A DNA stretch of 62,774 bases from Methanolacinia paynteri (GCF_000784355.1 NZ_KN360941.1:1-62774), one strand, 5' to 3'. Counted from the stretch's first letter, positions 4,541-30,869 are shown. A program made the numbers and translations. Notes: a model not told the origin generated them from the sequence alone.

Positions 4541-5695
4541 TTAAATCTGCCACCAAACGACGAATGCGCCGATTATAACCAGAACGAACCCCATTACGAG
4601 CCTGAGTTTATTCCTGTATTTCACTCTTGCAAAATCGACGAACTTCGGTGAAAGCCCGAGAGCGACTGCGAATGTAATCAGAAGCAGGGGCATCACAAAG
4701 AACAGATTGTACAGGATAAGGTACGGGACTCCTTCATAGAATGTCATCTCCGATGAAAGCAGGCTGATTATTGCGAGATAGATCCCACCGGTACACGGGA
4801 GTTCGAACATTCCGACAATAATCCCGAGGAAGAACGATGAGGGAAGTGTCGCTTTGGCAACGAACCGTCCGATGACTCCTTTTGAGGAGGCCGGGATCGA
4901 TAAGGACGCCTCCGGGTTCTTTTGTAATGCGTCGGTAATATTGATCAGTCCGGCCGTTATCGCAACGATCCCGGCAAATATCGAGAAATAGAACGATAAT
5001 CCTGAAAAACCGACAATGCTCATTATCCCGAGTCCGGCCAGGACATAGAAGATGAATACTGCTGATGTGTAGAGCAGTCCTGAAATAAGGACTTTTTTCC
5101 CCGGGCCCGATGCCATTAGTGAGACCAGAAGAAAAACGAGAACTGCAAATGCACAGGGATTTATTCCGTCCAATAGTCCGGCAGCTGCGATGATCGAGAG
5201 ATCCGTCAGCATGTTCTCTCCCAGAGATTCATTCTGGTAATATTCTTCTTCCGTCAGCCACTTTTTTTCATAATCTGTGTCCGGAATGAGTCCTTTATTG
5301 AGAGAATCGAATACATCCCCGGCATTCTCCATAACCGGTGACATTCCGGGCAAAACAACGGTGTCCCCGGTAAAGAGGATCGGGTAAGATACGTAGTGCA
5401 CGTTGTAGCGGATTCCGAATTCGTACATGAGAGTCAGGTTTTCCGTGGAGTTGTAGATGTCATAACAGTGCACTTCAATTTCCGGATAACTCTCGGAGAG
5501 GTTTTCGATGAAGGGTATTACCCTGCTGCATGAACTGCAATGGCTACTGTAGAATACGGTTACAGTCGTATTTGCAACTGCAACTTTCTGGCCGTAATTT
5601 TGTGAAATATTTTGATCATCGTCATAGGCCTGAACAGCCTGCGTGAAAATGATTAAAATTATGAATAAGGCGACAATATATCTGGTTCTCTGCAT
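4541..5695 (-). CDS. Secreted thioredoxin fused to CcdA/DsbD-type membrane electron carrier (module I)
   Basis: 384 aa. Signal peptide or first membrane helix at residues 1-23 (cleavable after QAVQA). Residues about 40-145 look like a thioredoxin fold with the redox motif SHCSSC (Cys53, Cys56). Residues about 163-384 hold six or so membrane helices with the CcdA hallmarks GINPCAF (Cys181) and FELPCTGG. Such proteins carry reducing equivalents from the cytoplasm to an outside-facing thioredoxin domain. It lies 333 bp downstream of the sixth pilin gene of module I on the same strand and has a near twin at 11056. I infer that it reduces or isomerises disulfides in the adjacent pilins. Its sequence is far more conserved between the modules than the pilins are. 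Confidence 0.85.
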   Translation of the reverse strand: MQRTRYIVALFIILIIFTQAVQAYDDDQNISQNYGQKVAVANTTVTVFYSSHCSSCSRVIPFIENLSESYPEIEVHCYDIYNSTENLTLMYEFGIRYNVHYVSYPILFTGDTVVLPGMSPVMENAGDVFDSLNKGLIPDTDYEKKWLTEEEYYQNESLGENMLTDLSIIAAAGLLDGINPCAFAVLVFLLVSLMASGPGKKVLISGLLYTSAVFIFYVLAGLGIMSIVGFSGLSFYFSIFAGIVAITAGLINITDALQKNPEASLSIPASSKGVIGRFVAKATLPSSFFLGIIVGMFELPCTGGIYLAIISLLSSEMTFYEGVPYLILYNLFFVMPLLLITFAVALGLSPKFVDFARVKYRNKLRLVMGFVLVIIGAFVVWWQI

Positions 5696-5856
5696 TTGAG
5701 ATTTCCCATATTAACCGTATAATACAGTTTTATGTTTTCAGAATGGAAAGACACCGGTTTCCCCGGGAAAAAACCCGGAGAAAATTTGAATCTGGATCCA
5801 CAATTTTTTTTCTATGGTGCTTTTGTAGTGATTCTATGGTGAATTTGCGGTGTCTG

Positions 5857-5896
5857 TTATAAGACCGGATGCCCGAAAAGACATCCGGGCCTTATA
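5857..5896 (-). other. Conserved hairpin between pilin B3 and the thioredoxin-CcdA gene (module I)
   Basis: On the + strand, TTATAAG..CCGGATG pairs with CATCCGG..CCTTATA around a short A-rich loop. The equivalent position of module II (12395-12436) has the same outer arms with a different inner stem (GGATTT/AAATCC), so pairing is kept while sequence changes. On the minus strand the outer arm also reads as a TATA-like CTTATAAG, so it may instead be, or include, the promoter of the downstream gene. Confidence 0.5.
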
Positions 5897-5917
5897 CCCG
5901 CCACTGTCCCTGCCCCC
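5897..5917 (-). other. G-rich tract next to the hairpin (module I)
   Basis: The minus strand has runs of 5, 3, 2 and 3 guanines with short spacers (GGGGGCAGGGACAG then TGGCGGG). It is a weaker version of the perfect four-run tract at 12437-12458 in module II. Confidence 0.45.
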
Positions 5918-5947
5918 TTCTCATCTCCTGCTATTACTGCCTCGCAG

Positions 5948-6023
5948 TTTTACATGAAAATCACGCTGTGATTTACATGAAACAGTCCATGAATCCTTTG
6001 TTTCATAAACGTTTTTGATGAAA
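5948..6023 (+). repeat. Inverted element, copy 1 (left flank of the module I pilins)
   Basis: A 76-bp element whose reverse complement recurs at 10965-11027, with about six mismatches over the shared 63 positions and one ~12-nt insertion here. It contains the near-palindrome CATGAAAATCAC-GCT-GTGATTTACATG (5953-5979) and the arms ATGAAAC/GTTTCAT (5977-6006). The two copies face each other and enclose the six pilin genes of module I and their promoter region. Confidence 0.7.
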
Positions 6024-6028
6024 CTCCC

Positions 6029-6598
6029 TTAAGATGTGATCTTCACCTCAGAGGTCGAGATGAGATTCCCGCTCTTGTCGCTTGTCTTGAGTAAAAATAC
6101 CTTGCCTACGTTTTTGGAACTCTGATACTTGAGTGCGTTTACAGCGGCACCTCCACCACTTCGGTAGGTAGCATAGAGTCCCGGCTGGAGCATTTCCATA
6201 GAGCAATTTTCTGTTGAGATATACAGGGTGTCTCCCGGGTTGAAAGAGGATTTTCCACCGGTATTGATGGTAAGGAACACCTGGTTTCCGTCTTTATCGG
6301 TGATTATGCTTCTGTTCAGCACCTCGGAAAACTCCTCAAGATTCGGACCGAAACCCGGCCCGTGCTGGGTGATGAAGACAAGGTTGTCGAGAGGAATTGC
6401 ATCCCCCCCGTCATGGGTAAAGGTCATGCCTTCGGAGACACTGAACGTCGCGCTGACCTTTGCTTGTGGGGCTTTTGACTGACTGTCGACCATTCCCGAA
6501 CCGAATGCCGATACGACCGCCGCGATAATTATCGTGACTACGAGCATAAGCATGATCCCGATCACAGGTGAAACCGCATCGCTTTTTACTCCGGTCAT
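6029..6598 (-). CDS. Type IV pilin-like protein, short class B (B3, module I)
   Basis: 189 aa. Residues 8-30 are the archaeal pilin N-terminal segment (DAVSPVIGIMLMLVVTIII), a short leader followed by a long hydrophobic helix that would form the filament core or membrane anchor. The rest is a secreted beta-rich domain with the class B marks GDAIPLDNL, GPGFGPNLEE, FNPGDTLYIS, a Cys before MLQP, and the KNVGKVFLL tail. The second cysteine of other class B proteins of these modules is missing (ALKYQSSKN). ATG overlaps the upstream A3 stop by 4 nt, implying coupled translation. Last pilin of module I. Precise function unknown. Confidence 0.85.
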   Translation of the reverse strand: MTGVKSDAVSPVIGIMLMLVVTIIIAAVVSAFGSGMVDSQSKAPQAKVSATFSVSEGMTFTHDGGDAIPLDNLVFITQHGPGFGPNLEEFSEVLNRSIITDKDGNQVFLTINTGGKSSFNPGDTLYISTENCSMEMLQPGLYATYRSGGGAAVNALKYQSSKNVGKVFLLKTSDKSGNLISTSEVKITS

Positions 6599-7596
6599 GC
6601 GCTCACCACAACATCCTTATCTAAGATCGTCTTCCCGGTCGGGATGTAGACCAACTTTACGTTCACAGTATCGCCGCTTCGAAGGTTCTCCCACCCGCAG
6701 CCGAGAACGGCCTGTATGTTATCTACCTGCGAACCGTATCCTTTATCATCTGTCCAATCATCCGCAATGATATCCACAGGTACAGTCTCTTCACCGGTAT
6801 AAACAGTGTACACTTTTTTGCCACTATCGCTTTTGTACTGGTAATAATAGGTGTGGAAAGGCTTCTGCCATCCACTATCCACACCTGTTGTTTGACCGTA
6901 GCCCCCTGAATAAGCAGTTATAGCATTCCCATCATCATTCCAGGGATAACCCCCTGCCGTGGAGTCAGGATTTTGACAGGACCCAATCGGCTCTGCCGTC
7001 ATGACGGTACCCTGTTCCAGGATGTAATTCCCGAAATAAGCTGATTCTGGATAGGAGTTGTGCAATGTGGCAGGAACATTGCCCTCCACGCCGGCACCTG
7101 ACCCGAATGGAGCAACACCATCATCTTCGTATAAATGTCTCACCGTACTCGAGGTACCCCCAGTGCGAGTATTGTGAACCCCGGGCAGGACTTCGGCTCC
7201 TCCGTGATATACAGTACCAATATTCAGACCGAGAATGCAGCCAACGCCGGTGGTTTCATAATCGGGACTCATTTTTGGCGGGTTCCCTACAATATAGGTA
7301 TTAGTCTTAACGGTGGTAGTCCATGAAGTGATGAGTTTCAGGTCACTTGTATTGATAGGCTCGCTCACGCCTGTTACCAGTGCATGGAATCCGCTATCAT
7401 GGTATGTACCGGAGTTGGCTATGCTGACATCCATACTGAGAGTAGGTGTCTTCTGGCTGCCTCCGTCAATTAGTCCGCCTGCAAATCCGCTTACGACCGC
7501 GGCAATGATTATCGTCACGACAAGCATCAGCATAACGCCGACGACCGGAGATACAGCACAGTCGGATTCCTGGAATTTTAATAAATTTTTCATCAT
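6595..7596 (-). CDS. Type IV pilin-like protein, long class A (A3, module I)
   Basis: 333 aa, the longest pilin here. Residues about 14-36 are the pilin helix (CAVSPVVGVMLMLVVTIII). Class A marks follow: TLSMDVSIANSGTY, VTGVSEPINTSDLKLITSW, APFGSGAGVEG, YFGNYILEQG, and the C-terminal VLGCGWENLRSGDTVNVKL. Cys residues lie in GVGCILG, GSCQNP and LGCGWEN; all three recur in the module II counterpart at 13121. GGAGG precedes the tandem ATGs at 7596 and 7593. It starts 22 nt after B2 and overlaps B3 by 4 nt. The conserved FGNY position has Ile after Tyr, so no N-glycosylation sequon here. Confidence 0.85.
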   Translation of the reverse strand: MMKNLLKFQESDCAVSPVVGVMLMLVVTIIIAAVVSGFAGGLIDGGSQKTPTLSMDVSIANSGTYHDSGFHALVTGVSEPINTSDLKLITSWTTTVKTNTYIVGNPPKMSPDYETTGVGCILGLNIGTVYHGGAEVLPGVHNTRTGGTSSTVRHLYEDDGVAPFGSGAGVEGNVPATLHNSYPESAYFGNYILEQGTVMTAEPIGSCQNPDSTAGGYPWNDDGNAITAYSGGYGQTTGVDSGWQKPFHTYYYQYKSDSGKKVYTVYTGEETVPVDIIADDWTDDKGYGSQVDNIQAVLGCGWENLRSGDTVNVKLVYIPTGKTILDKDVVVSA

Positions 7597-7618
7597 TTAT
7601 CCTCCTTGAAAGATAATC

Positions 7619-8272
7619 TCATACAGTGATCAGTACATCACTCTTTGAGATCAGGTGACCCTCCATGTCACTCACCTCAAGTATGAAGCTCTTGCCTATA
7701 CTATCCTGGTTCCTGATGCAGTGTGCCCATGCTGCTACCTGGGTTCCGTTGTATGTGTAACCGTCAGCGGCGATATTGATGCCCTCAAAGTCGGTAGGCG
7801 CAACGTTCGGCTGAAGAATGTTGCATGTACAGTCATCCGGTTCGATAGTTACGGTGTCTCCAGGGTTGAACGAGACCATGTAGTATCCACCCCATGCTGC
7901 TTTCATCGGTTGTGGGCCATGGTCCGTAATTACACCATGCCTGTCGGTGGTAATTGTCCTCTCGCTTTCCACCATTATCGTGGACATATCAAGTGTCTGT
8001 GCTGTCGATGACTCGAGGTTCGGCCCGAATGTCGGCCCGTCGCGGATCGTGAATATCAGGTCTTTTGTCGCGAGAGAATCGCCGCCTGCATTGGTGATGG
8101 TCATGCCTTCGGATATGCTGAAAGTTCCTTTGACATTCGCCTGCGGAGCTTTAGTCTGACCGTCGATAAGACCGCCTGAAAAAGCGGATACAACTGCCGC
8201 TATGATGATTGTCACCACAAGCATCAGCATTACACCGACAACCGGGGAGACCGCAGAATTATTCCTTTTCAT
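7619..8272 (-). CDS. Type IV pilin-like protein, short class B (B2, module I)
   Basis: 217 aa. Leader MKRNNS, then AVSPVVGVMLMLVVTIII. Class B body: QANVKGTFSISEGMTI, GPTFGPNLESS, FNPGDTVTIEPDDCTC-NILQP, WAHCIRNQDSIGK, and the end SKSDVLITV. It has the class B cysteine pair (CTC before NILQP, and WAHC), plausibly disulfide-bonded outside the cell. It starts 3 nt after the A2 stop. The module II twin (14089) is nearly superimposable, but the middle region (about residues 100-130) carries an extra stretch here. No enzyme motif is seen. Confidence 0.85.
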   Translation of the reverse strand: MKRNNSAVSPVVGVMLMLVVTIIIAAVVSAFSGGLIDGQTKAPQANVKGTFSISEGMTITNAGGDSLATKDLIFTIRDGPTFGPNLESSTAQTLDMSTIMVESERTITTDRHGVITDHGPQPMKAAWGGYYMVSFNPGDTVTIEPDDCTCNILQPNVAPTDFEGINIAADGYTYNGTQVAAWAHCIRNQDSIGKSFILEVSDMEGHLISKSDVLITV

Positions 8273-8275
8273 ATC

Positions 8276-9001
8276 TCAGTCCCCCCTGACGGTGACATCT
8301 TTTGCAAAGATCGTTTTCCCGCTCGGCACGAAGATCACCTTTACCGAGACCGTATCGCCAGACCGGAGATCTTGCCACCCGTGTCCAAGCACGGCCTGCA
8401 TGGGATCCGTGTATGCATCATCGTCCATTTCATAATATTCATAAGAGTCTTCTATGCCGTAACCGCTCGTATAATTGCCTCCCGTTCCGTCATTCATGCC
8501 GCCGAAAGGCTGTGCGCTCATGCTCACGCCCGGCGCAAGTGAGTAATTACCGAACCAACGCTCGGGAGCGTTGTTCGGTCTCAGGGAACTTCCGTTAATC
8601 GCCGATTCTCCTGCTACGGTTGCCATTCCGAAACCATAAGGCGCGATGCTTGCCACATTCAGGCCGGCTGAAACAATCGATGGTTCATTGACATTCACCA
8701 CGTTTCCTACGGAAATATTGCCGCCTATAGAACCGTTCTTCTTCCATGATGTGACAATTTTAAGGTCGCTTGTCTGGATCGGATCGCTGACCCCGGTTAC
8801 AATCGCGGAAAAACCGCTGTTTGCCCAGGTCCCTGAATTAGTAATCTTGACATCCATGGCAAGGTCCGGAGACTTTTGGCTGCCTCCTGCAACAAGGCCG
8901 CCTGCAAACCCGCTGACAACAGTTGCGATGATTATCGTTACCACAAGCATCAGCATGACACCGACAACAGGGGACACAGCCTGATCATTCTTCATCGTCA
9001 T
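8276..9001 (-). CDS. Type IV pilin-like protein, long class A (A2, module I)
   Basis: 241 aa. Leader MTMKNDQ followed by AVSPVVGVMLMLVVTIIIA. Class A marks: LAMDVKITNSGTW, VTGVSDPIQTSDLKIVTSW, APYGFGMATVAGES, RWFGNYSLAPG (with an N-Y-S sequon) and VLGHGWQDLRSGDTVSVKV. No cysteine. It starts 16 nt after B1 and is followed 3 nt later by B2, the within-pair spacing seen in all A-B pairs of the window. Inferred role: structural subunit of a surface filament or coat, working with its B partner. Confidence 0.85.
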   Translation of the reverse strand: MTMKNDQAVSPVVGVMLMLVVTIIIATVVSGFAGGLVAGGSQKSPDLAMDVKITNSGTWANSGFSAIVTGVSDPIQTSDLKIVTSWKKNGSIGGNISVGNVVNVNEPSIVSAGLNVASIAPYGFGMATVAGESAINGSSLRPNNAPERWFGNYSLAPGVSMSAQPFGGMNDGTGGNYTSGYGIEDSYEYYEMDDDAYTDPMQAVLGHGWQDLRSGDTVSVKVIFVPSGKTIFAKDVTVRGD

Positions 9002-9017
9002 CCCTTCTCCCCCCTGA

Positions 9018-9632
9018 TCATGCAGTTATCGTGACCTTGCTTCTGCAGATGAGATTCCCGCTCTTGTCGCTTACATCAAGGTAGAAGGTGTTTCCGATAT
9101 TTTCGTTGTTCTTGAAGCAGAGTTTCCACTTTTCCTGGTAGTTGCCGGAATTGTTATAGCTAAATCTATCTGTTTCAAGATAATCAGCGTAATCGTCCGG
9201 GACGACTATCGGCTGGAGCAGATCGCATCTTATACTCGACGAGTTGATGTACAAGGTATCTCCGGCTTTAAACGATGTAACAGATGTGCTGCCATCTCCG
9301 GTATCCAGTGGTCTCTCCCGACTATCGATAATTAATTTCTTATCGATAATCTGCGCAGTAACCTGTTCGAGATTCGTGCCGAATACAGGACTGTTTCTGA
9401 CCGTAAATACAAGATCATTTGTCGCAAGAGCGTCTCCGCCCATATGAATGATCTCCATTCCCGAGCCAATGCTGAATGTCCCCTGGATCGTTGCCTGAGG
9501 TGCTACCTGCTGGCTGCCCACCGAACTACCTGCAAAGGCTGAAACTACCGCTGCTATGATAATTGTTACCACAAGCATCATCATAACACCGACAACCGGT
9601 GAAACTGCTTCGTTGTTTATCTTAATTTCCAT
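9018..9632 (-). CDS. Type IV pilin-like protein, short class B (B1, module I)
   Basis: 204 aa. Leader MEIKINNE, then AVSPVVGVMMMLVVTIII. Class B marks: GDALATNDLVFTVRNSPVFG, FKAGDTLYINSS, IRCDLLQP, WKLCFKNNENIGNTFYL and GNLICRSKVTITA. Three cysteines (RCDLLQP, KLCFKN, LICRSK), all at the same positions in the module II twin at 15463. It begins 2 nt after the A1 stop. The LQP cysteine and the one before FKNNENIGN are the conserved class B pair and are candidate substrates of the thioredoxin-CcdA protein. Confidence 0.85.
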   Translation of the reverse strand: MEIKINNEAVSPVVGVMMMLVVTIIIAAVVSAFAGSSVGSQQVAPQATIQGTFSIGSGMEIIHMGGDALATNDLVFTVRNSPVFGTNLEQVTAQIIDKKLIIDSRERPLDTGDGSTSVTSFKAGDTLYINSSSIRCDLLQPIVVPDDYADYLETDRFSYNNSGNYQEKWKLCFKNNENIGNTFYLDVSDKSGNLICRSKVTITA

Positions 9633-9634
9633 GT

Positions 9635-10420
9635 TTAGCCCTCCGTAACTGCAACATCCTTTTCGAAAATCACTTTTCCGGTCGGGATATGGATTACTTT
9701 AACATTCACCGTATCACCGCTCCGCAGTTTCTCCCAATCATCTCCTAATACTGCCGTCGCTGCGTCTACAGAAGCGTCGGTATAGGAGCCGCCTGGATTA
9801 TATTCGTAAGGGGTTACTACGCCGTAACCGCCGTCATCACTCTGCCCTGTAGAAGACCCGATTGCTTTTTCCGAGTTGCTGCCATATGCGAATGCAACAA
9901 GTCCTGTTCCCTGGATGAGGGAGTAGTTTCCGAACTGTTGATCAGGTTTGTCAAAAGGATTCGTCAGGGACTGTGCACCCGATGAAGAGTTCACACCCGG
10001 CCCGTACCCGTATGGCGCGTTGCTTTCGATAAGCGAGGTTATGGAACCACCGTTTCCGATTTCCGGGCTGTTGACATTGGCAACCAGTGGTGTCGAGGTC
10101 TCTCCTCCTGAAGTAATGTCTCCGGAATTACTATCAGTGACTCTCCAGGAGGTTGCGATTTTTATATCCTTTGTCTTGATAGGATCGCTGACACTCGTAA
10201 CAGTTGCCGAGAACCCACTTCCGACATAGGTTCCCGTGTTTGAAATCTTTACATCCATTGTAAGTAAGGGTGCATTTTGGCTTGTTCCCCCGACCAAGCC
10301 ACCGGCAAAACCGCTTACTACCGCTGCAATGATGATGGTGACAACCAGCATCAGCATTACGCCGACAACAGGAGACACAGCCGCTTCGCTATGCCCCGGT
10401 TCTTTCTTTAAAAAATTCAT
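9635..10420 (-). CDS. Type IV pilin-like protein, long class A (A1, module I)
   Basis: 261 aa from the ATG at 10420 (MNFLKKEPG), matching the start of its twin at 16842; the frame stays open to 10447, but GAGGAG lies just before 10420. Pilin helix AAVSPVVGVMLMLVVTIII. Class A marks: LTMDVKISNTGTYVGSGF, VTSVSDPIKTKDIKIATSW, APYGYGPGVNSSSG, QFGNYSLIQG (N-Y-S sequon) and KLRSGDTVNVKVIHIPTGK. No cysteine, unlike its twin, which has three. First gene of the module I pilin run, with about 540 bp of AT-rich DNA upstream that should hold the promoter. Confidence 0.85.
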   Translation of the reverse strand: MNFLKKEPGHSEAAVSPVVGVMLMLVVTIIIAAVVSGFAGGLVGGTSQNAPLLTMDVKISNTGTYVGSGFSATVTSVSDPIKTKDIKIATSWRVTDSNSGDITSGGETSTPLVANVNSPEIGNGGSITSLIESNAPYGYGPGVNSSSGAQSLTNPFDKPDQQFGNYSLIQGTGLVAFAYGSNSEKAIGSSTGQSDDGGYGVVTPYEYNPGGSYTDASVDAATAVLGDDWEKLRSGDTVNVKVIHIPTGKVIFEKDVAVTEG

Positions 10421-10558
10421 GTTAACTCCTCTGGCCATGAAGGCCAATTCACCAAAAGTGGCTCATAAAAATTACGTGAAACCACTCGCCATAAATGGAT
10501 TAATTAGCGCTTATACTTAAAATTGATCATAAATTAAGCATTATTTGTTAACCTAACC

Positions 10559-10575
10559 AAATTAATTAGATCGAC
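10559..10575 (-). promoter_or_regulatory. Shared upstream element of A1-type pilin operons (module I)
   Basis: + strand AAATTAATTAGATCGAC, 138 bp upstream of the A1 ATG. The same 17-mer with 2 differences lies at 16983-16999, 140 bp upstream of A1' in module II. The rest of the intergenic DNA is poorly conserved, so this may be a regulator or promoter site. Inferred from two copies only. Confidence 0.4.
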
Positions 10576-10868
10576 TTTAATGGGAAAATGACAAATACTT
10601 AAAATTTATTAAGTACGCAAATGCGCATAATTGTCCTGTCTCACTGGTGTCGGGAAAAATCTGGAACAGAAAATATATTTTTTCAAACTACACCCTGATT
10701 GTAAAGTAAAGCTTAAATAAGGCGAAAAATAGCGAAAAGCGTGATTTTTTACATCCACACAGAAGCCTCAGATTCCACGATCTCCTCCTTCTTCGATATA
10801 AACATCGTCTGAAAAAAAGAGGTCATTCTCATGCCGTTATTTCGATGCGATCCGGGCTTTAATCGTTT

Positions 10869-10953
10869 AAAAAACGGCAATTCTCCGGTTTTCAATCTAG
10901 TTCTCAATAAAGCCTGTTAAAAAGAGCAAAATGAGCTCAAATTGCCGTTTTTT
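10869..10953. other. 14-bp perfect inverted repeat in the inter-module gap
   Basis: AAAAAACGGCAATT (10869-10882) and AATTGCCGTTTTTT (10940-10953) are exact inverted copies 57 bp apart. Each arm ends in a T6 tract on one strand, so the structure could end transcripts from either side, in particular the thioredoxin-CcdA transcript that stops at 11056. The 608-bp gap 10448-11055 has no convincing gene. Confidence 0.5.
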
Positions 10954-10964
10954 GGCGACATTTA

Positions 10965-11027
10965 TTTCACGAAAACGTTCATGAAACAGAGGTTTCATGT
11001 AAGTCACAACGTGATTTGCATGTAAAA
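10965..11027 (-). repeat. Inverted element, copy 2 (right flank of the module I pilins)
   Basis: Reverse complement of the element at 5948-6023. It holds the perfect palindrome CATGAAAC-AGAG-GTTTCATG (10980-10999) and the near-palindrome CATGTAAGTCAC-AAC-GTGATTTGCATG (10996-11022). It lies 29 bp downstream of the stop codon of the module II thioredoxin-CcdA gene. Confidence 0.7.
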
Positions 11028-11055
11028 GGATCTAACATGAAAAAAAGATCGTTCG

Positions 11056-12237
11056 TTAAATCTGCCACCACACGACGAAAGCACCGATTATGATGAGAAC
11101 AATTCCCATTACGAGCCTGAGTTTATTCCTGTATTTTATTCTTGCAGAATCGACGAACTTCGGTGAAAGCCCGAGAGCGACTGCGAATGTAATCAGAAGC
11201 AGGGGCACTACGAAGAATAAATTGTACAGAATAAGGTATGGGACTCCTTCATAGAATGTCATCTCCGATGAAAGCAGGCTGATTATTGCGAGATAGATCC
11301 CCCCGGTACATGGGAGTTCGAACATTCCGACAATAATCCCGAGTAAAAACGAAGATGGAAGGGTAGCTTTGGCAACAAACCGGCCGATGACTCCTTTTGA
11401 AGAGGCAGGGATCGACAGGGATGCTTCCGGGTTCTTTTGGAGTGCGTCGGTAATATTGATCAGTCCGGCCGTTATCGCAACAATGCCGGCAAATATCGAG
11501 AAATATAAGGATAATCCTGAAAAACCGACAATGCTCATTATTCCAAGTCCGGCCAGGACATAGAAGATGAATACTGCTGATGTGTAGAGCAGTCCTGAAA
11601 TAATTACCTTTTTACCCGGGCCCGATGCCATGAGGGAGACCAAAAGAAAAACGAGGACTGCAAATGCACAGGGGTTAATTCCATCTAAGAGTCCGGCAGC
11701 TGCGATGATCGAGAGATCCGTCAGCATGTTCTCTCCCAGAGATTCATTCTGGTAATATTCTTCTTCCGTCAGCCACTGTTTTTCATATTCTGTGTCCGGA
11801 ATGAGTCCTTTATCAAGAGAGTAGAACACATCTCCGGCATTCTCCATAATCGGCGCCATTCCCGGAAGAACAACGGTGTTCCCGGTAAATAGGATCGGGT
11901 AAGATACGTAGTGCATGTTGTAGCGGATCCCGAATTCATACATGAGAGTCAGGTTTTCCGTGGAGTTGTAGATGTCATAATAGTGCACTTCGATTCCCGG
12001 ATAACTCTCCGAGAGGTTTTCGATGAAGGGTATTACCCTGTTGCACGAACTGCAATGACTGCTGTAAAAAACGGTTGCCGTGGTGTTTGCAGTTGAAATC
12101 AGTTGCCTGAACTGATCTTCCTGTGATACTCCCGTGTGGACATATGAAAAATTTGTTTCCCCTTCCCAGGCATAAACGGCCTGTGTGAAAAGGATTAAAA
12201 TTAAAAACAGGGCAATAGTGTACTTTGTCTTCAGCAT
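11056..12237 (-). CDS. Secreted thioredoxin fused to CcdA/DsbD-type membrane electron carrier (module II)
   Basis: 393 aa, twin of the protein at 4541. N-terminal signal segment (LFLILILFTQAVYAWEGE), a thioredoxin-like domain with SHCSSC, then a CcdA-like domain with GINPCAF and FELPCTGG. The membrane part is almost identical to the module I copy at protein level and also very similar in DNA, while the segment between signal peptide and thioredoxin domain differs and is longer by about nine residues. It follows the sixth pilin gene of module II by 266 bp on the same strand. Inferred role: thiol reductant or isomerase for secreted pilins of module II. Confidence 0.85.
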   Translation of the reverse strand: MLKTKYTIALFLILILFTQAVYAWEGETNFSYVHTGVSQEDQFRQLISTANTTATVFYSSHCSSCNRVIPFIENLSESYPGIEVHYYDIYNSTENLTLMYEFGIRYNMHYVSYPILFTGNTVVLPGMAPIMENAGDVFYSLDKGLIPDTEYEKQWLTEEEYYQNESLGENMLTDLSIIAAAGLLDGINPCAFAVLVFLLVSLMASGPGKKVIISGLLYTSAVFIFYVLAGLGIMSIVGFSGLSLYFSIFAGIVAITAGLINITDALQKNPEASLSIPASSKGVIGRFVAKATLPSSFLLGIIVGMFELPCTGGIYLAIISLLSSEMTFYEGVPYLILYNLFFVVPLLLITFAVALGLSPKFVDSARIKYRNKLRLVMGIVLIIIGAFVVWWQI

Positions 12238-12394
12238 TTGAGACTTCCCGTATCAATTCTGTTTAGTTTTCAGTTTTAAGAATGGAAAGACACCGGTTTC
12301 TCCGGGAAAGACCCGGAGAAGATTTGATTCTGGAGTTAACAATTAGTTAATCTATGATGCTTTTGGTGAATTTGTGGTGAATTTGCGGTGTCTC

Positions 12395-12436
12395 TTATAA
12401 GGCAGGATTTGCCTGTTCGTAAAATCCAGCCTTATA
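12395..12436 (-). other. Conserved hairpin between pilin B3' and the thioredoxin-CcdA gene (module II)
   Basis: TTATAAGGC.GGATTT pairs with AAATCC.GCCTTATA around a 12-nt loop, with a single A-A mismatch. Same place and outer arms as 5857-5896, different inner stem: compensatory change between paralogous loci. It may act in the RNA (processing, attenuation) or be a promoter (TATA-like CTTATAAG on the minus strand). Confidence 0.5.
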
Positions 12437-12458
12437 CCCGCCCCTGTCCCTGCCCCCC
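12437..12458 (-). other. Potential G-quadruplex tract (module II)
   Basis: The minus strand, which is the coding strand here, has four guanine runs of 6, 3, 4 and 3 with spacers of 1-2 nt, fitting the canonical G3+N1-7 quadruplex pattern. It lies 46 nt after the B3' stop and directly before the hairpin at 12395-12436. The module I copy keeps the tract in weaker form. Confidence 0.55.
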
Positions 12459-12481
12459 TCTCTCCATGTCCGCCGTTATCA

Positions 12482-12501
12482 GGCATTGTTCAAAGAATGC
12501 C
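12482..12501 (-). other. Small hairpin directly after the B3' stop codon
   Basis: GGCATT (12482-12487) and AATGCC (12496-12501) form a perfect 6-bp stem with an 8-nt loop, starting 2 nt after the last pilin stop codon of module II. It could protect the 3' end of the pilin message or pause transcription. Confidence 0.35.
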
Positions 12502-12503
12502 CG

Positions 12504-13124
12504 TTACGATGTGATCGTCACATCGCATGAAGAGATGATGTTTCCTGACCTGTCTCCTGCCTGAAAGATAAAGTTCTTTCCTACATTGTTGGGATTACGG
12601 TAGCAGAGATACCAGAGAGAGGCATAGCAGATATAGCCGCCGGATTTACACTTGTAATAAGTAGGGTTCTTTTCCCAGTCCCAGCCACGTATTGATGATC
12701 CCACATCTGGCTGAAGAATTGGTGCCGTACAGTTGTATGCCGAGATGTAGAGGGTGTCTCCGGGATTAAACGAGGACTTGCTGCCTGAAGTGTTCAGTAA
12801 CACTAAATCTCCTTCTTTATCTGTGATTATGCTCCTGTTGATCTCCTCTGTTGTGAGAGATTCTGTGTTCGGTCCGAAACCTTCCCCGTTCTGGGTGATA
12901 AAGACGAGGTCATTAAGAGGTATCGCGTCCCCGCCGTCATGTGTGATTGTCATGCCCTGCGAAACGCTGAACGTCGCGCTTATTTTTGCCTGCGGGGCCT
13001 TTGACTGGGTGTTTGCCAGACCTCCGGCAAATCCCGAGACTACCGCTGCTATTATAATCGTCACGACAAGCATGAGCATCACGCCGACAACTGGTGAAAC
13101 TGCATCTTTTTCTACTCTGTTCAT
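12504..13124 (-). CDS. Type IV pilin-like protein, short class B (B3', module II)
   Basis: 206 aa. Leader MNRVEKD, then AVSPVVGVMLMLVVTIII. Class B marks: FSVSQGMTITHDGGDAIPL, GEGFGPNTES, FNPGDTLYISAYNC-TAPILQP, LWYLCYRNPNNVGK. Five cysteines (NCTAP, YKCK, YICY, YLCY, SSCD), the most of any pilin here, against one in its module I counterpart B3. It overlaps A3' by 4 nt. The added Cys-bearing loop between LQP and the second conserved Cys is absent from B3, so this gene pair has diverged strongly since duplication. Confidence 0.85.
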   Translation of the reverse strand: MNRVEKDAVSPVVGVMLMLVVTIIIAAVVSGFAGGLANTQSKAPQAKISATFSVSQGMTITHDGGDAIPLNDLVFITQNGEGFGPNTESLTTEEINRSIITDKEGDLVLLNTSGSKSSFNPGDTLYISAYNCTAPILQPDVGSSIRGWDWEKNPTYYKCKSGGYICYASLWYLCYRNPNNVGKNFIFQAGDRSGNIISSCDVTITS

Positions 13125-14071
13125 GCGCTCACCGTCACATCCTTGTCAAAGATTGTCTTCCCGCTCGGTATGTAGACGACCTTGACATTAACAATGTCGC
13201 CGGTTCGCAGGTTCTCCCACCCGCATCCCAGCACTGCCTGGGTATTGTCGACCTGTCCGCCGTCGGCAATGATGCCAGCTGGAGTGGTCTCATTGCCGGT
13301 ATAGACACAATACACATACTTGCTATACGGGTCGTTGATTTTACCATCTGACTGATACTGGAATAAACTGGTAATTAACTGCCTGTCTTCAGACTGTACA
13401 TTTGTGCCGTAGCCGCCATAAAAAAATGCGCCTCCAAATTTACCTTTACCCGGATAACCCCCGACGACAGGATCGTTTGCCTTACATTCACCGACAGGTT
13501 CGGCTGTCATGACTGTCCCTTGTTCCAGGACGTAGTTCCCGAAATATGACGTTTTTTGATAGGAACTCCACTTTGTGACAGGAACCGATCCCTCAACGCC
13601 GGCACCTGATCCGAATGGCGCAACACCGCCTCCATTCGTGTAGGTCCTGTCAGTATGGGTGTTGGGGACACCCGGAAGTACCTCGGCACCTCCGTGATAG
13701 ACAGTTCCGAGCGCCAGTCCGGGAACGCATCCCGCTCCTTTAACTTCAACCCACTGCGTTGCGTCGTTCTTATCCAGCACGTCAATATATGTATTTGTCT
13801 TCACGGTGGTCGTCCATGAGGTGATGATTTTCAGGTCGCTTGTCGGGATCGGCTCGCTCACTCCTGTTACTTTTGCATGAAATCCGCTGTCCCTGTAAGT
13901 GCCGGAATTCGTTATGCTGATATCCATACTGAGAGTAGGAGCTCTCTGTTTGTCGCTGTCTATGAGTCCTCCTGCAAACCCGCTCACGACAGTTGCGATT
14001 ATAATTGTCACGACAAGCATGAGCATCACACCGATTACAGGAGAAACTGCGGAATAATTTTCATTTTTCAT
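13121..14071 (-). CDS. Type IV pilin-like protein, long class A (A3', module II)
   Basis: 316 aa from ATG 14071 (MKNENYS), preceded by GGAGGACTTAAA; an in-frame ATG at 14092 would overlap B2' and has no better ribosome site. Helix AVSPVIGVMLMLVVTIIIA. Class A marks: TLSMDISITNSGTYRDSGF, VTGVSEPIPTSDLKIITSW, APFGSGAGVEGSVPV, YFGNYVLEQG, VLGCGWENLRTGDIVNVKV. Four Cys (GAGCVPG, GECKAN, VYCVYTG, LGCGWEN), three shared with A3 of module I. It follows B2' by 17 nt and overlaps B3' by 4 nt. Confidence 0.85.
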   Translation of the reverse strand: MKNENYSAVSPVIGVMLMLVVTIIIATVVSGFAGGLIDSDKQRAPTLSMDISITNSGTYRDSGFHAKVTGVSEPIPTSDLKIITSWTTTVKTNTYIDVLDKNDATQWVEVKGAGCVPGLALGTVYHGGAEVLPGVPNTHTDRTYTNGGGVAPFGSGAGVEGSVPVTKWSSYQKTSYFGNYVLEQGTVMTAEPVGECKANDPVVGGYPGKGKFGGAFFYGGYGTNVQSEDRQLITSLFQYQSDGKINDPYSKYVYCVYTGNETTPAGIIADGGQVDNTQAVLGCGWENLRTGDIVNVKVVYIPSGKTIFDKDVTVSA

Positions 14072-14088
14072 TTTAAGTCCTCCATAGA

Positions 14089-14700
14089 TCATACAGTGAT
14101 CAGTACGTCACTCTTTGAGATCAGGTGTCCCTCCGTGTCACTCACTTCCAGGATGAAGCTCTTGCCGATACTGTCCTGGTTCCTTATGCAATGCGCCCAG
14201 GCTACGGTCTGTGTCCCGTTGTATGTGTACCCGTCATCTTCAACATTGTCCTCGAAATCCGTCGGGGCGACATTAGGCTGGGAAATATTGCATGTGCAGT
14301 ACTCCGGGTCAATGTTTATCGTGCTCCCCGGGTTGAAGGAGACCATGAAGTACGTCCCCTGTTCAGTTACCACAGGGCCGGTACCTCTTTCGGTAGTTAC
14401 GGTAGTCTTGGACAGATCCAGCGCCTGGGCTGTTGAAGACTCGAGATTCGGGCCAAATGTGGGCCCGTCCCTGATGGTGAATATAAGGTTCTTTGTAGGT
14501 AGAGGCTCCCCGCCTGCATGAGTGATAGTCATACCTTCGGATATACTGAAAGTCCCCTTGATGTTTGCCTGCGGGGCCTTGTTCTGCCCTTCTATAACTC
14601 CTCCTGAAAAGGCGGAAACGACCGCTGCAATTATGATGGTGATAACAAGCATCAGCATGACGCCGATAACCGGAGAGACCGCAGAATTATTGTTTCTCAT
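14089..14700 (-). CDS. Type IV pilin-like protein, short class B (B2', module II)
   Basis: 203 aa. MRNNNS then AVSPVIGVMLMLVITIII. Class B marks: NIKGTFSISEGMTI, GPTFGPNLESSTAQ, FNPGSTINIDPEYCTC before NISQP, WAHCIRNQDSIGKSFIL, SKSDVLITV. Cys pair conserved with B2 of module I (CTC and WAHC). It begins 3 nt after the A2' stop. Compared with B2 it lacks a stretch of roughly 14 residues in the middle; the last 70 residues are nearly the same. Confidence 0.85.
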   Translation of the reverse strand: MRNNNSAVSPVIGVMLMLVITIIIAAVVSAFSGGVIEGQNKAPQANIKGTFSISEGMTITHAGGEPLPTKNLIFTIRDGPTFGPNLESSTAQALDLSKTTVTTERGTGPVVTEQGTYFMVSFNPGSTINIDPEYCTCNISQPNVAPTDFEDNVEDDGYTYNGTQTVAWAHCIRNQDSIGKSFILEVSDTEGHLISKSDVLITV

Positions 14701-14703
14701 ATC

Positions 14704-15447
14704 TCAGCCCTCCAGGACGGATATATCCTTTGAGAAGATCGTCTTCCCGGTCGGCACGAAGATTACCTTCAATGAGACAGTATCTCCTGATCTGAGTTCT
14801 TCCCATCCGTAGCCGAGCAGGGCCTGCATCGGATCGGTGTAATCGTCGCTGTCGAACCCGGTATAGATATATTTTGATACCGCACCGTAGCCGCAAAGAT
14901 GGCCCTGTTCGTCAGTATAGCTGTCTCCTGTTCCGTCATTCCTGCCGCCGAACGGCTGTGCACTCATACTCACACCGGTTGATAGCGTGTAATTCCCGAA
15001 TTGGCGTTCCGGAGCTTTGTTCGGTGTCAGGGCGCTTCCTGAAATGCCGGATTCTCCCGGAATTGTCGCCATTCCGAAACCATAGGGTGCGGTGCTTGCC
15101 ACGTTAAGACCGGACGAAGTCACGGACGGCTCGATAACATTTACCACATTTCCTATGGACGTATTGCCGCCTATAACATCATTTTTCTTCCATGACGTGA
15201 CAATCTTGAGATCGCTTGTCCGGATTGGATCGCTCACTCCTGTCACAGTTGCAGAAAAACTGCTGCCTGTCCATGTCCCCGAATTGGTAATCTTAACATC
15301 CATGGCAAGGTTAGGAGATTTCTGGCTGCCTTCTGCAATCATGCCACCTGCAAACCCGCTCACGACAGTTGCGATTATTATCGTCACGACAAGCATGAGC
15401 ATGACGCCGACTACAGGGGATACAGCCTGATCATTTTTCTTTATCAT
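14704..15447 (-). CDS. Type IV pilin-like protein, long class A (A2', module II)
   Basis: 247 aa. MIKKNDQ then AVSPVVGVMLMLVVTIIIA. Class A marks: LAMDVKITNSGTWTGSSF, VTGVSDPIRTSDLKIVTSW, APYGFGMATIPGES, QFGNYTLSTG (N-Y-T sequon), LLGYGWEELRSGDTVSLKV. One Cys (GHLCGYG), absent from A2. It lies 15 nt after B1' and 3 nt before B2'. It is closest to A2 of module I, so the two modules are collinear gene for gene. Confidence 0.85.
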   Translation of the reverse strand: MIKKNDQAVSPVVGVMLMLVVTIIIATVVSGFAGGMIAEGSQKSPNLAMDVKITNSGTWTGSSFSATVTGVSDPIRTSDLKIVTSWKKNDVIGGNTSIGNVVNVIEPSVTSSGLNVASTAPYGFGMATIPGESGISGSALTPNKAPERQFGNYTLSTGVSMSAQPFGGRNDGTGDSYTDEQGHLCGYGAVSKYIYTGFDSDDYTDPMQALLGYGWEELRSGDTVSLKVIFVPTGKTIFSKDISVLEG

Positions 15448-15462
15448 TCTTCTTCCCCCTGA

Positions 15463-16083
15463 TCAGGCCGTTATCGTGACCTCGCTTCTGCAGATAAGGT
15501 TCCCGCTCTTGTCACTGATATCAAGGTAGAAGGTGTTTCCGATATTTTCGTTGTTTTTAAAGCACAAATTCCACCGGTTCTGATAGTCGCCGGTACTGTT
15601 ATAGCTATAGCCGTCGCTCCTGATATTATCGGAATCAGAATAATCCTCCGGGACGAGTATCGGCTGAAGCAGATCGCACCTGATATTTGATGAACTGATG
15701 TAGAGAGTGTCACCTGATTTGAATGAGGTAACATCTGTACTGCCGTCTCCGCAGTCAAGTGGTCTTTCCCTGCCGTCGGTTATCAGCTTTTTATCGATAA
15801 TCTGCGAAGTGGCCTGTTCAAGGTTCGGTCCGAATACAGGGCTGTTTCTTACAGTGAATACGAGATCATTGGTTGCGAGAGCATCTCCGCCCATGTGAAT
15901 GATCTCCATGCCTGTTCCTATGCTGAATTTCCCCTGGATAGTCGCCTGCGGGGCTTTCTGCTGGTTGTCCATCGAACTGCCTGCAAATGCGGAGACCACT
16001 GCTGCTATGATGATTGTCACAACAAGCATCATCATAACGCCGACTACCGGCGATACTGCATTGTTATCAGATTTAAATTCCAT
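15463..16083 (-). CDS. Type IV pilin-like protein, short class B (B1', module II)
   Basis: 206 aa. MEFKSDNN then AVSPVVGVMMMLVVTIII. Class B marks: GDALATNDLVFTVRNSPVFG, FKSGDTLYISSSN, IRCDLLQP, WNLCFKNNENIGNTFYL, GNLICRSEVTITA. All three cysteines match B1 of module I. Starts 3 nt after A1'. B1 and B1' share nearly all of their N-terminal 90 residues and differ mostly in the segment between LQP and the second Cys, which is where class B proteins vary in general. Confidence 0.85.
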   Translation of the reverse strand: MEFKSDNNAVSPVVGVMMMLVVTIIIAAVVSAFAGSSMDNQQKAPQATIQGKFSIGTGMEIIHMGGDALATNDLVFTVRNSPVFGPNLEQATSQIIDKKLITDGRERPLDCGDGSTDVTSFKSGDTLYISSSNIRCDLLQPILVPEDYSDSDNIRSDGYSYNSTGDYQNRWNLCFKNNENIGNTFYLDISDKSGNLICRSEVTITA

Positions 16084-16086
16084 GCT

Positions 16087-16842
16087 TTAGCCCTCCGTAA
16101 CCGAGACATCCTTTTCGAAGATCACTTTCCCGGTCGGGATGTGGATCACTTTGACGTTCACGGTATCTCCAAGTCTCAGTGATTCCCATCCGGTACCGAG
16201 CACGGCCTGCGCAGAATCATAATTGTTCCAGTATAAACCCCCGGGAGTGTATGAATAGTCATCAACGACGCCGTAACCACCTTCGTCACTCATACCGGTA
16301 GACGAGCCGATGGCATCGTCAGAACAACTGCCGTATGGGTACGCAACAAGCCCTGTTCCCTGTACAAGCGAGTAATTTCCAAAGTGCTGATCAGGGTTTT
16401 TGTAAGCACTTGTCAGGGACTGGCCACCCGAAGACGAGCTTACACCCGGGCCGTACCCGTACGGAGCACAGCTGTTGTTACTTCTGGGGCACCTTACGTT
16501 TAGAACAAGAGGTGTTGTGGTGCTCCCTCCGGAGGTCACGTCACCTGTGGCACTGTCTGTAACCTTCCAGGAAGTCGCGATCTTAATGTCCTTCGTTGAA
16601 ATAGGATCGCTGACACTCGTGACGGTTGCCGAAAATCCACTCCCTATATAGCTTCCAGTATTCGAAATCTTTACGTCCATTGTAAGCAGAGGCGCCTTTT
16701 GGCTCGTTCCTCCCACAAGGCCGCCTGCAAACCCGCTTACTACCGCTGCAATGATGATGGTGACAACCAGCATCAGCATTACACCGACAACGGGAGACAC
16801 AGCGTCTTCTCTATGCCCCGGTTTTACCTTTAGAAAATTCAT
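16087..16842 (-). CDS. Type IV pilin-like protein, long class A (A1', module II)
   Basis: 251 aa. MNFLKVKPGHRED then AVSPVVGVMLMLVVTIII. Class A marks: LTMDVKISNTGSYIGSGF, VTSVSDPISTKDIKIATSW, APYGYGPGVSSSSG, HFGNYSLVQG (N-Y-S sequon), SLRLGDTVNVKVIHIPTGK. Three cysteines (VRCPRS, NNSCAPYG, YGSCSDD) that A1 lacks. First gene of module II. A small inverted repeat (TGGCC/GGCC, about 16856-16869) sits just upstream of its start. The divergent gene at 17149 faces away across 306 bp. Confidence 0.85.
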   Translation of the reverse strand: MNFLKVKPGHREDAVSPVVGVMLMLVVTIIIAAVVSGFAGGLVGGTSQKAPLLTMDVKISNTGSYIGSGFSATVTSVSDPISTKDIKIATSWKVTDSATGDVTSGGSTTTPLVLNVRCPRSNNSCAPYGYGPGVSSSSGGQSLTSAYKNPDQHFGNYSLVQGTGLVAYPYGSCSDDAIGSSTGMSDEGGYGVVDDYSYTPGGLYWNNYDSAQAVLGTGWESLRLGDTVNVKVIHIPTGKVIFEKDVSVTEG

Positions 16843-16982
16843 GTTAATTCCCCGTGGCCGTAAGGCCGGTGTTCTAGAAGTGGGTCATAACAATCGTGTG
16901 AAACCACTTCCTTAAGTACGAGATCATGAAGTAATTGTATTTAACTGAGATCATTTGTATATTATTTTTTATTAACATTGTT

Positions 16983-17148: not shown

Positions 17149-17763
17149 ATGGAAAAAAATAATCCGGGAACAGATCGTTATGATGCCGGTAAACAAAATT
17201 TGCGGGAGTCTTCTTTCGATATCGATTCCGGATCATATATCGATCTTGATGAAATGCTTATCTCAGTACAAAAAGATCCTTTGAATCCCGTCAGGGTACC
17301 GTTTCCGCAGGCAAATGATCTTGATAAGATCCTTGATGTAGTAGTTTCTTTCAATGAAAACCGGAAAACGAGTGAGCAGATATCAAAGCATCTTAAATTT
17401 CACGGACGACAGGGCGACTATTATGCAAATGCCGCGGTATATCTTGGACTATTGGCAAGGGATCAGTATTCGGTCGGTTCATTCGTTTTGACAGGGCTTG
17501 GAAAAGAGATTAAACGCTGTCCGATCAGGATATGCAGGACCCGGATATTATTCGTTCAACTGCTGAAAAAACCGGTTTTTCGCTCGACGCTGATTCTGCT
17601 TAGAGATTATGATTACGATGTAAGTAAGATTTCAAAGGATGACATAGCTCATATCATAATGGAGAATTACATGGGCTATAGCCTGACAACAAGCAAAAGA
17701 AGGGCCTCTACAGTTATAAACTGGATGAACTGGGCCTGTCATAATTTTAAATTTAAGTCTTAA
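17149..17763 (+). CDS. Predicted winged-helix DNA-binding protein, restriction-accessory-like
   Basis: 204 aa. Residues about 58-135 look like a winged helix: LDKILDVVVSFNENRKTSEQ, then HGRQGDYYANAAVYLGLL and FVLTGLGKEI; residues about 180-195 have TSKRRASTVINWMNWAC. I recall this layout (RQ-x-YY, then RRAST-x-x-WxxW) from a domain found with type II restriction enzymes, but no nuclease or methylase gene is nearby. GGGAGG precedes the start. Divergent from pilin module II, so a regulator of those pilins is one reasonable inference. Function not established. Confidence 0.55.
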   Translation: MEKNNPGTDRYDAGKQNLRESSFDIDSGSYIDLDEMLISVQKDPLNPVRVPFPQANDLDKILDVVVSFNENRKTSEQISKHLKFHGRQGDYYANAAVYLGLLARDQYSVGSFVLTGLGKEIKRCPIRICRTRILFVQLLKKPVFRSTLILLRDYDYDVSKISKDDIAHIIMENYMGYSLTTSKRRASTVINWMNWACHNFKFKS

Positions 17764-17850
17764 TTATCTCCGGGCAATATTGCAGTTATAATCACGTTCA
17801 TTTAACTTTATGAGTTATTTGATCAATTGCCCAACATTTTATTGCATTTT

Positions 17851-18903
17851 ATGAGCGATCCCGAAAATAATGAGAGAATACTCCCGAATTACCGGTTAAG
17901 GTTTGTAGTCCTTGTTGCCGCAGTTTGTTTCTGTGCCCTTTTCTCGCTTGGAGTCGGGCGTTTTTCCATCAGCATGCCCGATGTTGTGATGATTCTTACT
18001 TCAAATATTCTCTCGATAATAAACGCATCTCCTATTGAAGAAACATGGGACTATGCGATGAATAGTGTCGTGATGAATATCCGCCTTCCGAGAATTCTTG
18101 CTGCATTACTTGTCGGTGCGGCTTTATCTACTGCAGGTGCGGCATACCAGGGAATGTTTCAGAATCCGTTGGTCTCCCCTGACATTCTCGGTGCATCGGC
18201 AGGAGCGGGTTTCGGGGCATCTCTTGCAATTTTTCTCTCCCTTGGAAGCGGTGCTGTAACCATGTTTGCTTTTACAGGCGCCATCACCGCGGTAGGTGTC
18301 GCATATTGCATAAGCCGGCTTACCAAAGGGTCCCCTATTTTAGGAATGGTTCTTGCAGGTATTCTTGTAGGAAGTCTTTTTTCGGCTTCGCTTTCCTATA
18401 TCAAGTTGATCGCCGATACCACCGAGCAGCTTCCGGCGATAACATACTGGCTCATGGGAAGTCTCTCGGCTTCGACGATGTCAGATGTTTTTTACGCCGG
18501 ACCGCTGATCATTGCCGGACTGATACCGCTTGTTCTCCTTAAATGGAGGCTGAACATCCTGACCCTCGGGGAGGACGAGGCGAAGAGCATGGGGGTGAAT
18601 ACCAGGCTCCTGCGTGTTGTCGTCATCGCATGTGCAACTCTCATCACTGCGGTTGCCGTGGCCATATCGGGGATAATCGGGTGGGTAGGCCTTGTAATTC
18701 CACATTTCTGCCGGATGGTCTTTGGGTATGACTACAGGCTGATCATTCCGGCGTCCATATTCATGGGCGGCGGTTTCCTCCTGCTGGTCGACGATTTTGC
18801 ACGGACGATGGCATCGATCGAGGTTCCACTGGGAATCCTTACCGCATTCGTCGGCGGGCCGATCTTTGCATACCTTTTGATTGTCAACGGGAGGCGATCA
18901 TGA
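17851..18903 (+). CDS. FecCD/BtuC-type ABC transporter permease
   Basis: 350 aa from the ATG at 17851; a TTG at 17827 would add eight residues and neither has a clear ribosome site. About ten membrane helices. Family marks: NIRLPRILAALLVGAALSTA, GAAYQGMFQNPLVSPDILG, GEDEAKSMGVN and IIGWVGLVIPHFCRM. Members import ferric siderophores, cobalamin, heme or, in some archaea, molybdate/tungstate. It overlaps the ATPase gene by 4 nt. No binding protein is adjacent; an orphan one of the right family is at 38173, so a partnership is possible but unproven. Confidence 0.9.
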   Translation: MSDPENNERILPNYRLRFVVLVAAVCFCALFSLGVGRFSISMPDVVMILTSNILSIINASPIEETWDYAMNSVVMNIRLPRILAALLVGAALSTAGAAYQGMFQNPLVSPDILGASAGAGFGASLAIFLSLGSGAVTMFAFTGAITAVGVAYCISRLTKGSPILGMVLAGILVGSLFSASLSYIKLIADTTEQLPAITYWLMGSLSASTMSDVFYAGPLIIAGLIPLVLLKWRLNILTLGEDEAKSMGVNTRLLRVVVIACATLITAVAVAISGIIGWVGLVIPHFCRMVFGYDYRLIIPASIFMGGGFLLLVDDFARTMASIEVPLGILTAFVGGPIFAYLLIVNGRRS

Positions 18904-19685
18904 CACTTGAGGTTGAAAATCTGACGTTTTCCTACGGGAAAAATCTCAGGGATGTGTTATGCGATGTCTCGTTTTCTGCAAAGGATGGGGATCTTCTTGC
19001 AGTTCTGGGACCTAACGGGGTCGGGAAGAGCACGATGTTTCGCTGCATTCTCGGGTTCCTGAGAAATTATTCGGGCTCTGTTTTCCTGGAAGGAGCCGAT
19101 ATAAAAACACTTGATCACAAGCAGATTGCAAAGAAGATTGCATATATTCCGCAGTCGACTTTTCCTGTGTTCAACTTCACTGTTCTGGATGTCGTCCTTA
19201 TGGGGCTTACAAACCAGATCAGTATCCTCTCCGAGCCGAAGCAGCAGCATGTCGACGAGGCGTACGAGGCGATGAAAAGTCTCGGAATCGCCCACCTGAA
19301 GAATGCAGGTTACGGGGAGATCTCCGGGGGGGAACGGCAGCTTGCACTTATTGCCCGTGCTCTTGTCCAGAAGGCAAAGATATTGATCATGGACGAGCCG
19401 ACCGCGAATCTGGACTACGGAAACCAGTGGAGGGTAATGAGGAGGATTGTGAATCTTGCAAAGGACGGGTATATCGTGATTCTTTCCACCCATAATCCTG
19501 ATCATGCATTTCTCTATGCAAATCGTGTTCTGATGATCCAGGGAGGGAAGGTGATTGCGGACGGTGCTCCCGAGGATGTAATGACCGCCGATCTGATCCA
19601 GAATGTATACGGGGTGAGCGTGTGCATCGAAGACTACGAGAATGTCCGGCGTACTCATAAGATCTGTATTCCGCGCGATGAGTAG
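18900..19685 (+). CDS. FecE/BtuD-type ABC transporter ATPase
   Basis: 261 aa. Walker A GPNGVGKST (about residues 37-45), Q-loop IPQSTFPVFNF, signature ISGGERQLALIARAL, Walker B ILIMDEPTANLD, H-loop LSTHNPDHAF. Partner of the permease just upstream (ATGA overlap). Together they form the energising part of a metal-chelate importer; the substrate cannot be read from these two subunits. Confidence 0.92.
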   Translation: MTLEVENLTFSYGKNLRDVLCDVSFSAKDGDLLAVLGPNGVGKSTMFRCILGFLRNYSGSVFLEGADIKTLDHKQIAKKIAYIPQSTFPVFNFTVLDVVLMGLTNQISILSEPKQQHVDEAYEAMKSLGIAHLKNAGYGEISGGERQLALIARALVQKAKILIMDEPTANLDYGNQWRVMRRIVNLAKDGYIVILSTHNPDHAFLYANRVLMIQGGKVIADGAPEDVMTADLIQNVYGVSVCIEDYENVRRTHKICIPRDE

Positions 19686-19839: not shown

Positions 19840-19913
19840 TTGACGATTAAATACACATCTTTACAAACCTTTTCTGCATGGTGCTTTAGTGCATCATATC
19901 TATGGTGAATGGA

Positions 19914-20567: not shown

Positions 20568-20569
20568 TT

Positions 20570-21142: not shown

Positions 21143-21151
21143 GTGTTTTGA

Positions 21152-22054: not shown

Positions 22055-22058
22055 AGCA

Positions 22059-29993: not shown

Positions 29994-30066
29994 CCGAATA
30001 TTAAGTATCAGTCCTTACAAACTTCGTGATCATGGTGCTGTAGTGCATCATATGTATGGTGAATGT

Positions 30067-30867: not shown

Positions 30868-30869
30868 TT

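Follow-up and report, generated by a model that had tools for sequence, protein, structure and literature searches.

A tandemly doubled module of paired pilin genes and a thioredoxin-CcdA fusion gene in Methanolacinia paynteri and its relatives

Archaeal type IV pili of the PilA family are often encoded by pilin genes that lie outside the assembly operon and are prone to tandem duplication, with the ATPase and TadC provided in trans (Makarova et al. 2016, PMC4858521; this and the other sources cited are used in excerpt). The single mention of 'thioredoxin' in the excerpted text of that census concerns a KaiB-like regulator. In F-type conjugation, the pilus genes include one for TrbB, a thioredoxin-fold CxxC enzyme without which pili are not produced normally (PMC10939261); its redox state depends on DsbD, to judge from the title of reference 57 in that paper. 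Filaments built from related, distinct subunits are represented by the M. villosus archaellum (PMC8821640) and a heteropolymeric bacterial type 4 pilus (PMC10628169). A search of open-access literature brought up no paper that links archaeal pilins to CcdA. The subject here is a seven-gene module of Methanolacinia paynteri, present in two tandem copies, in which six pilin genes are followed by a gene for a fusion of thioredoxin and a CcdA-type membrane protein. It is located in a stretch of 62,774 nucleotides (GCF_000784355.1, NZ_KN360941.1:1-62774; 'the window'), which corresponds to C42 among the 46 contigs of the 2.79 Mb genome.

The two Pilin_N pilin types are referred to as A and B, the thioredoxin-CcdA fusion as T, and the tandem modules as M1 and M2. 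A preliminary description of the locus had proposed two collinear blocks of six pilins followed by a thioredoxin-CcdA gene; all 14 open reading frames are found in place on the minus strand (M2, 16842-11056; M1, 10420-4541), and both modules read A1 B1 A2 B2 A3 B3 T (Table 1). The copies are in register at an offset of about 6.4-6.5 kb, with nucleotide identities of 60-92%. In trees of the A, B and CcdA proteins every gene pairs by position (A1 with A1', B1 with B1' and so on): A1, A2, A3, B1, B2 and B3 are separate supported clades, each made up of the same position of every module. This supports duplication of the module as a whole, not of single genes. Adjacent pilin genes abut or overlap, whereas B3 and T are separated by roughly 270-330 nt.

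Table 1. Coordinates of the modules and associated features (positions in the window, except for the locus of M. petrolearia).
Feature	Position	Strand	Remarks
M2 pilin A1	16087..16842	-	251 aa, 3 Cys
M2 pilin B1	15463..16083	-	206 aa, 4 Cys
M2 pilin A2	14704..15447	-	247 aa
M2 pilin B2	14089..14700	-	203 aa, CxC plus third Cys
M2 pilin A3	13121..14092	-	323 aa, 4 Cys; 4-nt overlap with B2
M2 pilin B3	12504..13124	-	206 aa, 5 Cys; 4-nt overlap with A3
M2 T, predicted exported thioredoxin-CcdA fusion	11056..12237	-	393 aa
M1 pilin A1	9635..10420	-	261 aa, 0 Cys
M1 pilin B1	9018..9632	-	204 aa, 3 Cys
M1 pilin A2	8276..9001	-	241 aa, 0 Cys
M1 pilin B2	7619..8272	-	217 aa, 3 Cys
M1 pilin A3	6595..7596	-	333 aa, 3 conserved Cys downstream of cleavage motif
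M1 pilin B3	6029..6598	-	189 aa, 1 Cys
M1 T, predicted exported thioredoxin-CcdA fusion	4541..5695	-	384 aa
Leader hairpin (AAGTGG...CCACTT), before A1 of M2	16877..16910	-	conserved in six of six doubled-module copies
Leader hairpin, before A1 of M1	10455..10487	-	conserved in six of six doubled-module copies
B3-T hairpin, M2	12396..12436	-	stem paired via different bases in other Methanolacinia copies
B3-T hairpin, M1	5858..5896	-	between B3 and T
DUF7226 gene, upstream edge of array	17149..17763	+	sister-species divergence like that of the apparently swapped pilins
FecCD-type permease and ATP-binding cassette ATPase	17827..19685	+	conserved upstream flank; frequent A-B pilin neighbour
T-less A-B-A-B pilin array, same two subfamilies	19902..22598	+	Pilin_N
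T-less A-B pilin pair	30064..31520	+	followed by oligosaccharyltransferase-like gene 31652-34192
Broken second thioredoxin-CcdA gene of M. petrolearia	L071:807-1278		two short frames, middle missing

The preliminary assignment of the pilins to a PF07790-like (Pilin_N) family is upheld, since a genome-wide PF07790 search gives 50 matches, among them all 12 module pilins, each over the cut-off; in Pfam, the eight of the 12 that were searched all match PF07790 at 61.8-85.6 bits (cut-off 25.2). The genome holds about 50 Pilin_N genes, and the window has six more of types A and B beyond the modules. Across Methanomicrobiales, A and B pilins are paired in most arrays. The B-pilin profile matches the solved archaeal pilins 8fj5 and 8gi2. 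Structure models of low confidence (predicted local distance difference test, pLDDT, 71 and 60) have a helix and strands; fold searches yield solely immunoglobulin-type matches for the B model (TM score about 0.3) and a single weak archaeal filament match for the A model (8rey, E 8e-4). Cysteines (Cys) are kept by position in all six modules known from the family, with three each in B1, B2 and A3.

In both modules T is a single gene, coding for a CxxC thioredoxin half and then a CcdA/DsbD-like membrane half. The CxxC residues C53 and C56 are invariant across 16 T homologues, as are C181 and C301 of the membrane domain, one in each of its halves (NPC and ELPCTGG), so that an intact four-Cys relay is contained within one whole gene. 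A T profile matches solved thioredoxins at 3e-7. Single-sequence Pfam searches with the window T give Thioredoxin at 2e-4 and SfLAP at 7e-6; because both are below the curated cut-offs, the CcdA assignment is drawn from the Cys pattern and the family alignment, in which three of the 16 members match DsbD_TM (2.6e-6) and one matches DsbD_2 (1e-7). The thioredoxin half scores 20.7 bits against TIGR02738, the TrbB isomerase model (2.5e-4), below its cut-off of 132. Elsewhere in the genome, on contig C44, another T is found in the neighbourhood usual for the family.

The seven-gene order recurs outside M. paynteri. The module is also doubled in Methanolacinia petrolearia and in G009, which belongs to another genus of the same family. 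An A-pilin profile search over 232 genomes of the class led to G117, in another family, and to G182 and G183, in a third. G117 carries the complete seven-gene module once (L218:6214-12464, in a 2.0 Mb contig), its six pilins having 0, 3, 0, 3, 4 and 6 Cys, and its T joins the clade of module T proteins (support 94/93); full T is absent in the three other genomes searched in its genus (G094, G095 and G102). With G117, G182 and G183 included in the A and B trees, each position is still one supported clade. The association of pilins with CcdA envisaged at the outset holds for the modules and for clusters of the kind seen on contig C35, but it is not general. No Pilin_N gene is present in the flanking stretch read at 79 of 80 thioredoxin-CcdA loci from public genomes, nor in that of the other Methanomicrobiales T loci read, bar modules and C35-type clusters; in relatives that bear pilins, another ten T loci read likewise lie away from pilins. 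On contig C35 (L062:2350-8030), an A-B-A-B pilin array and a gene of a second T lineage point towards each other, separated by a methyltransferase gene.

The modules have a mosaic ancestry. In the tree of A2-B2-A3-B3, the six family modules form three pairs, each with 100/100 support: the upstream module of M. petrolearia with the upstream module of G009, M2 with the downstream module of G009, and M1 with the downstream module of M. petrolearia. There are three module lineages, two of which are present in each genome. The approximately unbiased (AU) test rejects grouping of the A2-B3 segment by genome and by upstream position, and a simple recent duplication inside each genome was likewise rejected for this segment (AU p 5e-96 for the two window modules, 0.003 for the two G009 modules). 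Between the window and M. petrolearia, synonymous divergence (dS) is 0.08-0.36 in flanking core genes and 0.33 in the upstream-module T genes, and runs from 0.93 to saturation in the upstream-module pilins. Between M2, the upstream module of the window, and the downstream module of G009, dS for A2-B3 is 0.50-1.03, lower than in core genes (1.19-2.55), while T stands at 2.27. An identity scan finds a switch of ancestry near 12500, at the junction of B3 and T; T is homogenised within genomes (dS 0.37 and 0.45), and A3 and B3 are the most divergent module genes. The simplest reading is that pilin segments were swapped between genera, in either direction, while T stayed native. An ancestral array of three modules, from which each genome lost one, would agree with the tree and the gene order and is compatible with exchange between genera, but the synonymous divergences fit exchange better. 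Beside the array, the DUF7226 protein is 56% identical between the sister species, compared with 97% for the adjacent FecCD (dS 1.10 vs 0.36).

The balance of probability tips slightly towards an operon-like module coding for three A-B pilin pairs, whose heteromeric type IV filaments would be put together by machinery acting in trans, and for a dedicated thiol-redox protein, T. CcdA and DsbD proteins take electrons from thioredoxin in the cytoplasm and deliver them to a thioredoxin-like partner on the outer side. The Pilin_N pairs, three per module, would probably co-assemble into heteromeric filaments, with the ATPase, platform and peptidase proteins coming from genes elsewhere. Through its CcdA half, T would bring electrons across the membrane and hand them to its extracellular thioredoxin half; the latter may reduce or isomerise disulfides of B1, B2, B3 and A3 during extracellular folding. 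In Methanolacinia and one related genus, tandem copies would recombine and pilin segments swap between modules and genera, T being kept and homogenised during the exchange. What favours this explanation is the collinear duplicate with gene-by-gene orthology, the recurrence in a second family, the intact four-Cys T and the conserved pilin Cys, along with the A-B pairing in most arrays, the B-profile match to 8fj5 and 8gi2, and the mosaic ancestry. The position of the G117 T in the module-T clade supports it too, although the searched congeners have no full T. Contig C42 has no T2SSE assembly ATPase (seven matches are found elsewhere in the genome), and the one archaeal prepilin peptidase found, a single PF06847 match, is on contig C32; the self-contained surface-structure cassette first imagined is therefore not supported. 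A bolder version, in which a mobile pilin operon has a transmembrane thiol reductase to itself for maturing heteromeric pili, the enzyme static, the pilin segments swapped between genera by recombination and the whole functionally tied to neighbouring metal or cofactor importers, is possible but doubtful.

Several observations weigh against a dedicated T. G182 and G183 keep the six-pilin order and the Cys with no adjacent T, their T being present elsewhere in the genome and absent from the stretch read around the pilins. The T of the second M. petrolearia module is broken, and T is separated from B3 by a gap with hairpins, which makes its co-transcription with the pilins uncertain. VKOR, a possible source of disulfides, was not found, and the confidence of the pilin models is too low for judging Cys-Cys distances. 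In favour of a dedicated T, B pilins within the family average 3.5 Cys in T-linked arrays and 1.0 in others (clade-level p 0.004), but this comparison was picked after the data were seen. The Cys pair is present too in some T-less B pilins, and the proposal that only T-adjacent arrays have it was rejected, given that T-less arrays of another family keep these Cys. T might instead be a hitch-hiker that serves many exported proteins as a general extracytoplasmic reductant, having come by duplication from its usual locus to a place next to the pilins. Its homologues are widespread, mostly far from pilins and beside housekeeping genes, and the T-less six-pilin arrays, the broken module copy and the persistence of the C44 copy in its family-typical context all suit such a role. 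Yet T was retained in place through the duplication of the module, both module copies are intact in two genomes, the association is seen again in a second family, where the searched congeners are without full T, and the second T lineage stands beside another A-B-A-B array on C35, which leaves the hitch-hiker rather unlikely.

Two further explanations give the leading part to other components. The locus could serve metal acquisition, with A-B pilins or their thiols capturing a metal or chelate for a FecCD/BtuF-type importer and T keeping the thiols reduced. In four genomes, at least 14 of the 31 FecCD permeases have a pilin gene within 5 kb, where random placement would give 1.5; BtuF-like, DUF364, FmdE-like and methyltransferase genes are repeatedly found beside A-B pilins in several Methanomicrobiales families, and T is near BtuF-like genes in another family. 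Many A-B pilins are nevertheless without Cys, the importers have no known substrate, and the adjacency may stem from shared regulation or a recombination hotspot, which makes metal capture a distinctly improbable purpose. The modules could also be a reservoir of variation, in which recombination alters the exposed pilus surface, for instance against viruses, and T is incidental. The three lineages with two per genome, the A2-B3 exchange between genera with its mosaic breakpoints, the divergence of A3 and B3 and the equal divergence of DUF7226 would all fit. Against this, the ratio of nonsynonymous to synonymous divergence is 0.05-0.25, so that no whole-gene positive selection is indicated, and each module is apparently complete and has a leader to itself, which sets it apart from silent pilin cassettes; a variation reservoir is the least probable of these explanations, and very improbable in absolute terms.

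FecCD genes are next to A-B pairs in other families too and are rare at pilin-less T loci; no association of pilin pairs with importers of the FecCD type was met in the literature searched. In the window, the segments 17827-19685, 22694-25859 and 34386-39402 carry genes for FecCD/BtuF-type transport, DUF364, FmdE-like, CobW-like and methyltransferase proteins.

The noncoding gaps of the modules contain two kinds of hairpin. The leader fold precedes A1 in six copies, among which just two pairs have changes on both sides, weak evidence for a conserved structure. The B3-T hairpin is found in the four Methanolacinia copies, its stem preserved despite base changes on both sides. Searches of Rfam over 4400-32000 with E up to 1 gave no match, and neither the leader nor the B3-T hairpins fit a known RNA family; attenuation or processing between the pilins and T may be guessed at. 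There is also a 36-nt inverted pair, 92% complementary, with one arm in the M1 B3-T gap (5948-5983) and the other just upstream of M1 (10992-11027), each arm being itself partly palindromic.

If the favoured explanation of a pilin module with its own thiol-redox protein is correct, archaeal type IV pili would have a dedicated redox maturation step, TrbB-like but with the electron supply in the same protein. The locus would also be a natural case of pilin segments crossing genera beside a conserved anchor gene, and the link of pilin pairs with FecCD importers can be examined across Methanomicrobiales.

Compared with described systems, the module pilins share Pilin_N (PF07790) with the PilA-family archaeal type IV pili, whereas the excerpted census describes no fixed A-B six-gene alternation and no thioredoxin-CcdA among pilins (PMC4858521). 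Like the CcdA/DsbD thiol transporters, T has two conserved membrane-domain Cys and a fused thioredoxin domain; unlike them, it sits inside a pilin module, and its single-sequence Pfam scores are below cut-off. The putative filaments proposed for the A-B pairs resemble the heteropolymeric filaments of archaea and bacteria, for which the excerpted papers (PMC8821640, PMC10628169) mention no thiol enzyme, while the module has T. With TrbB, T has in common that it is a CxxC thioredoxin-fold enzyme encoded with pilus genes (PMC10939261, in excerpt). The pilus class is a different one, and where TrbB and DsbD are separate proteins, T would unite both functions in one chain.

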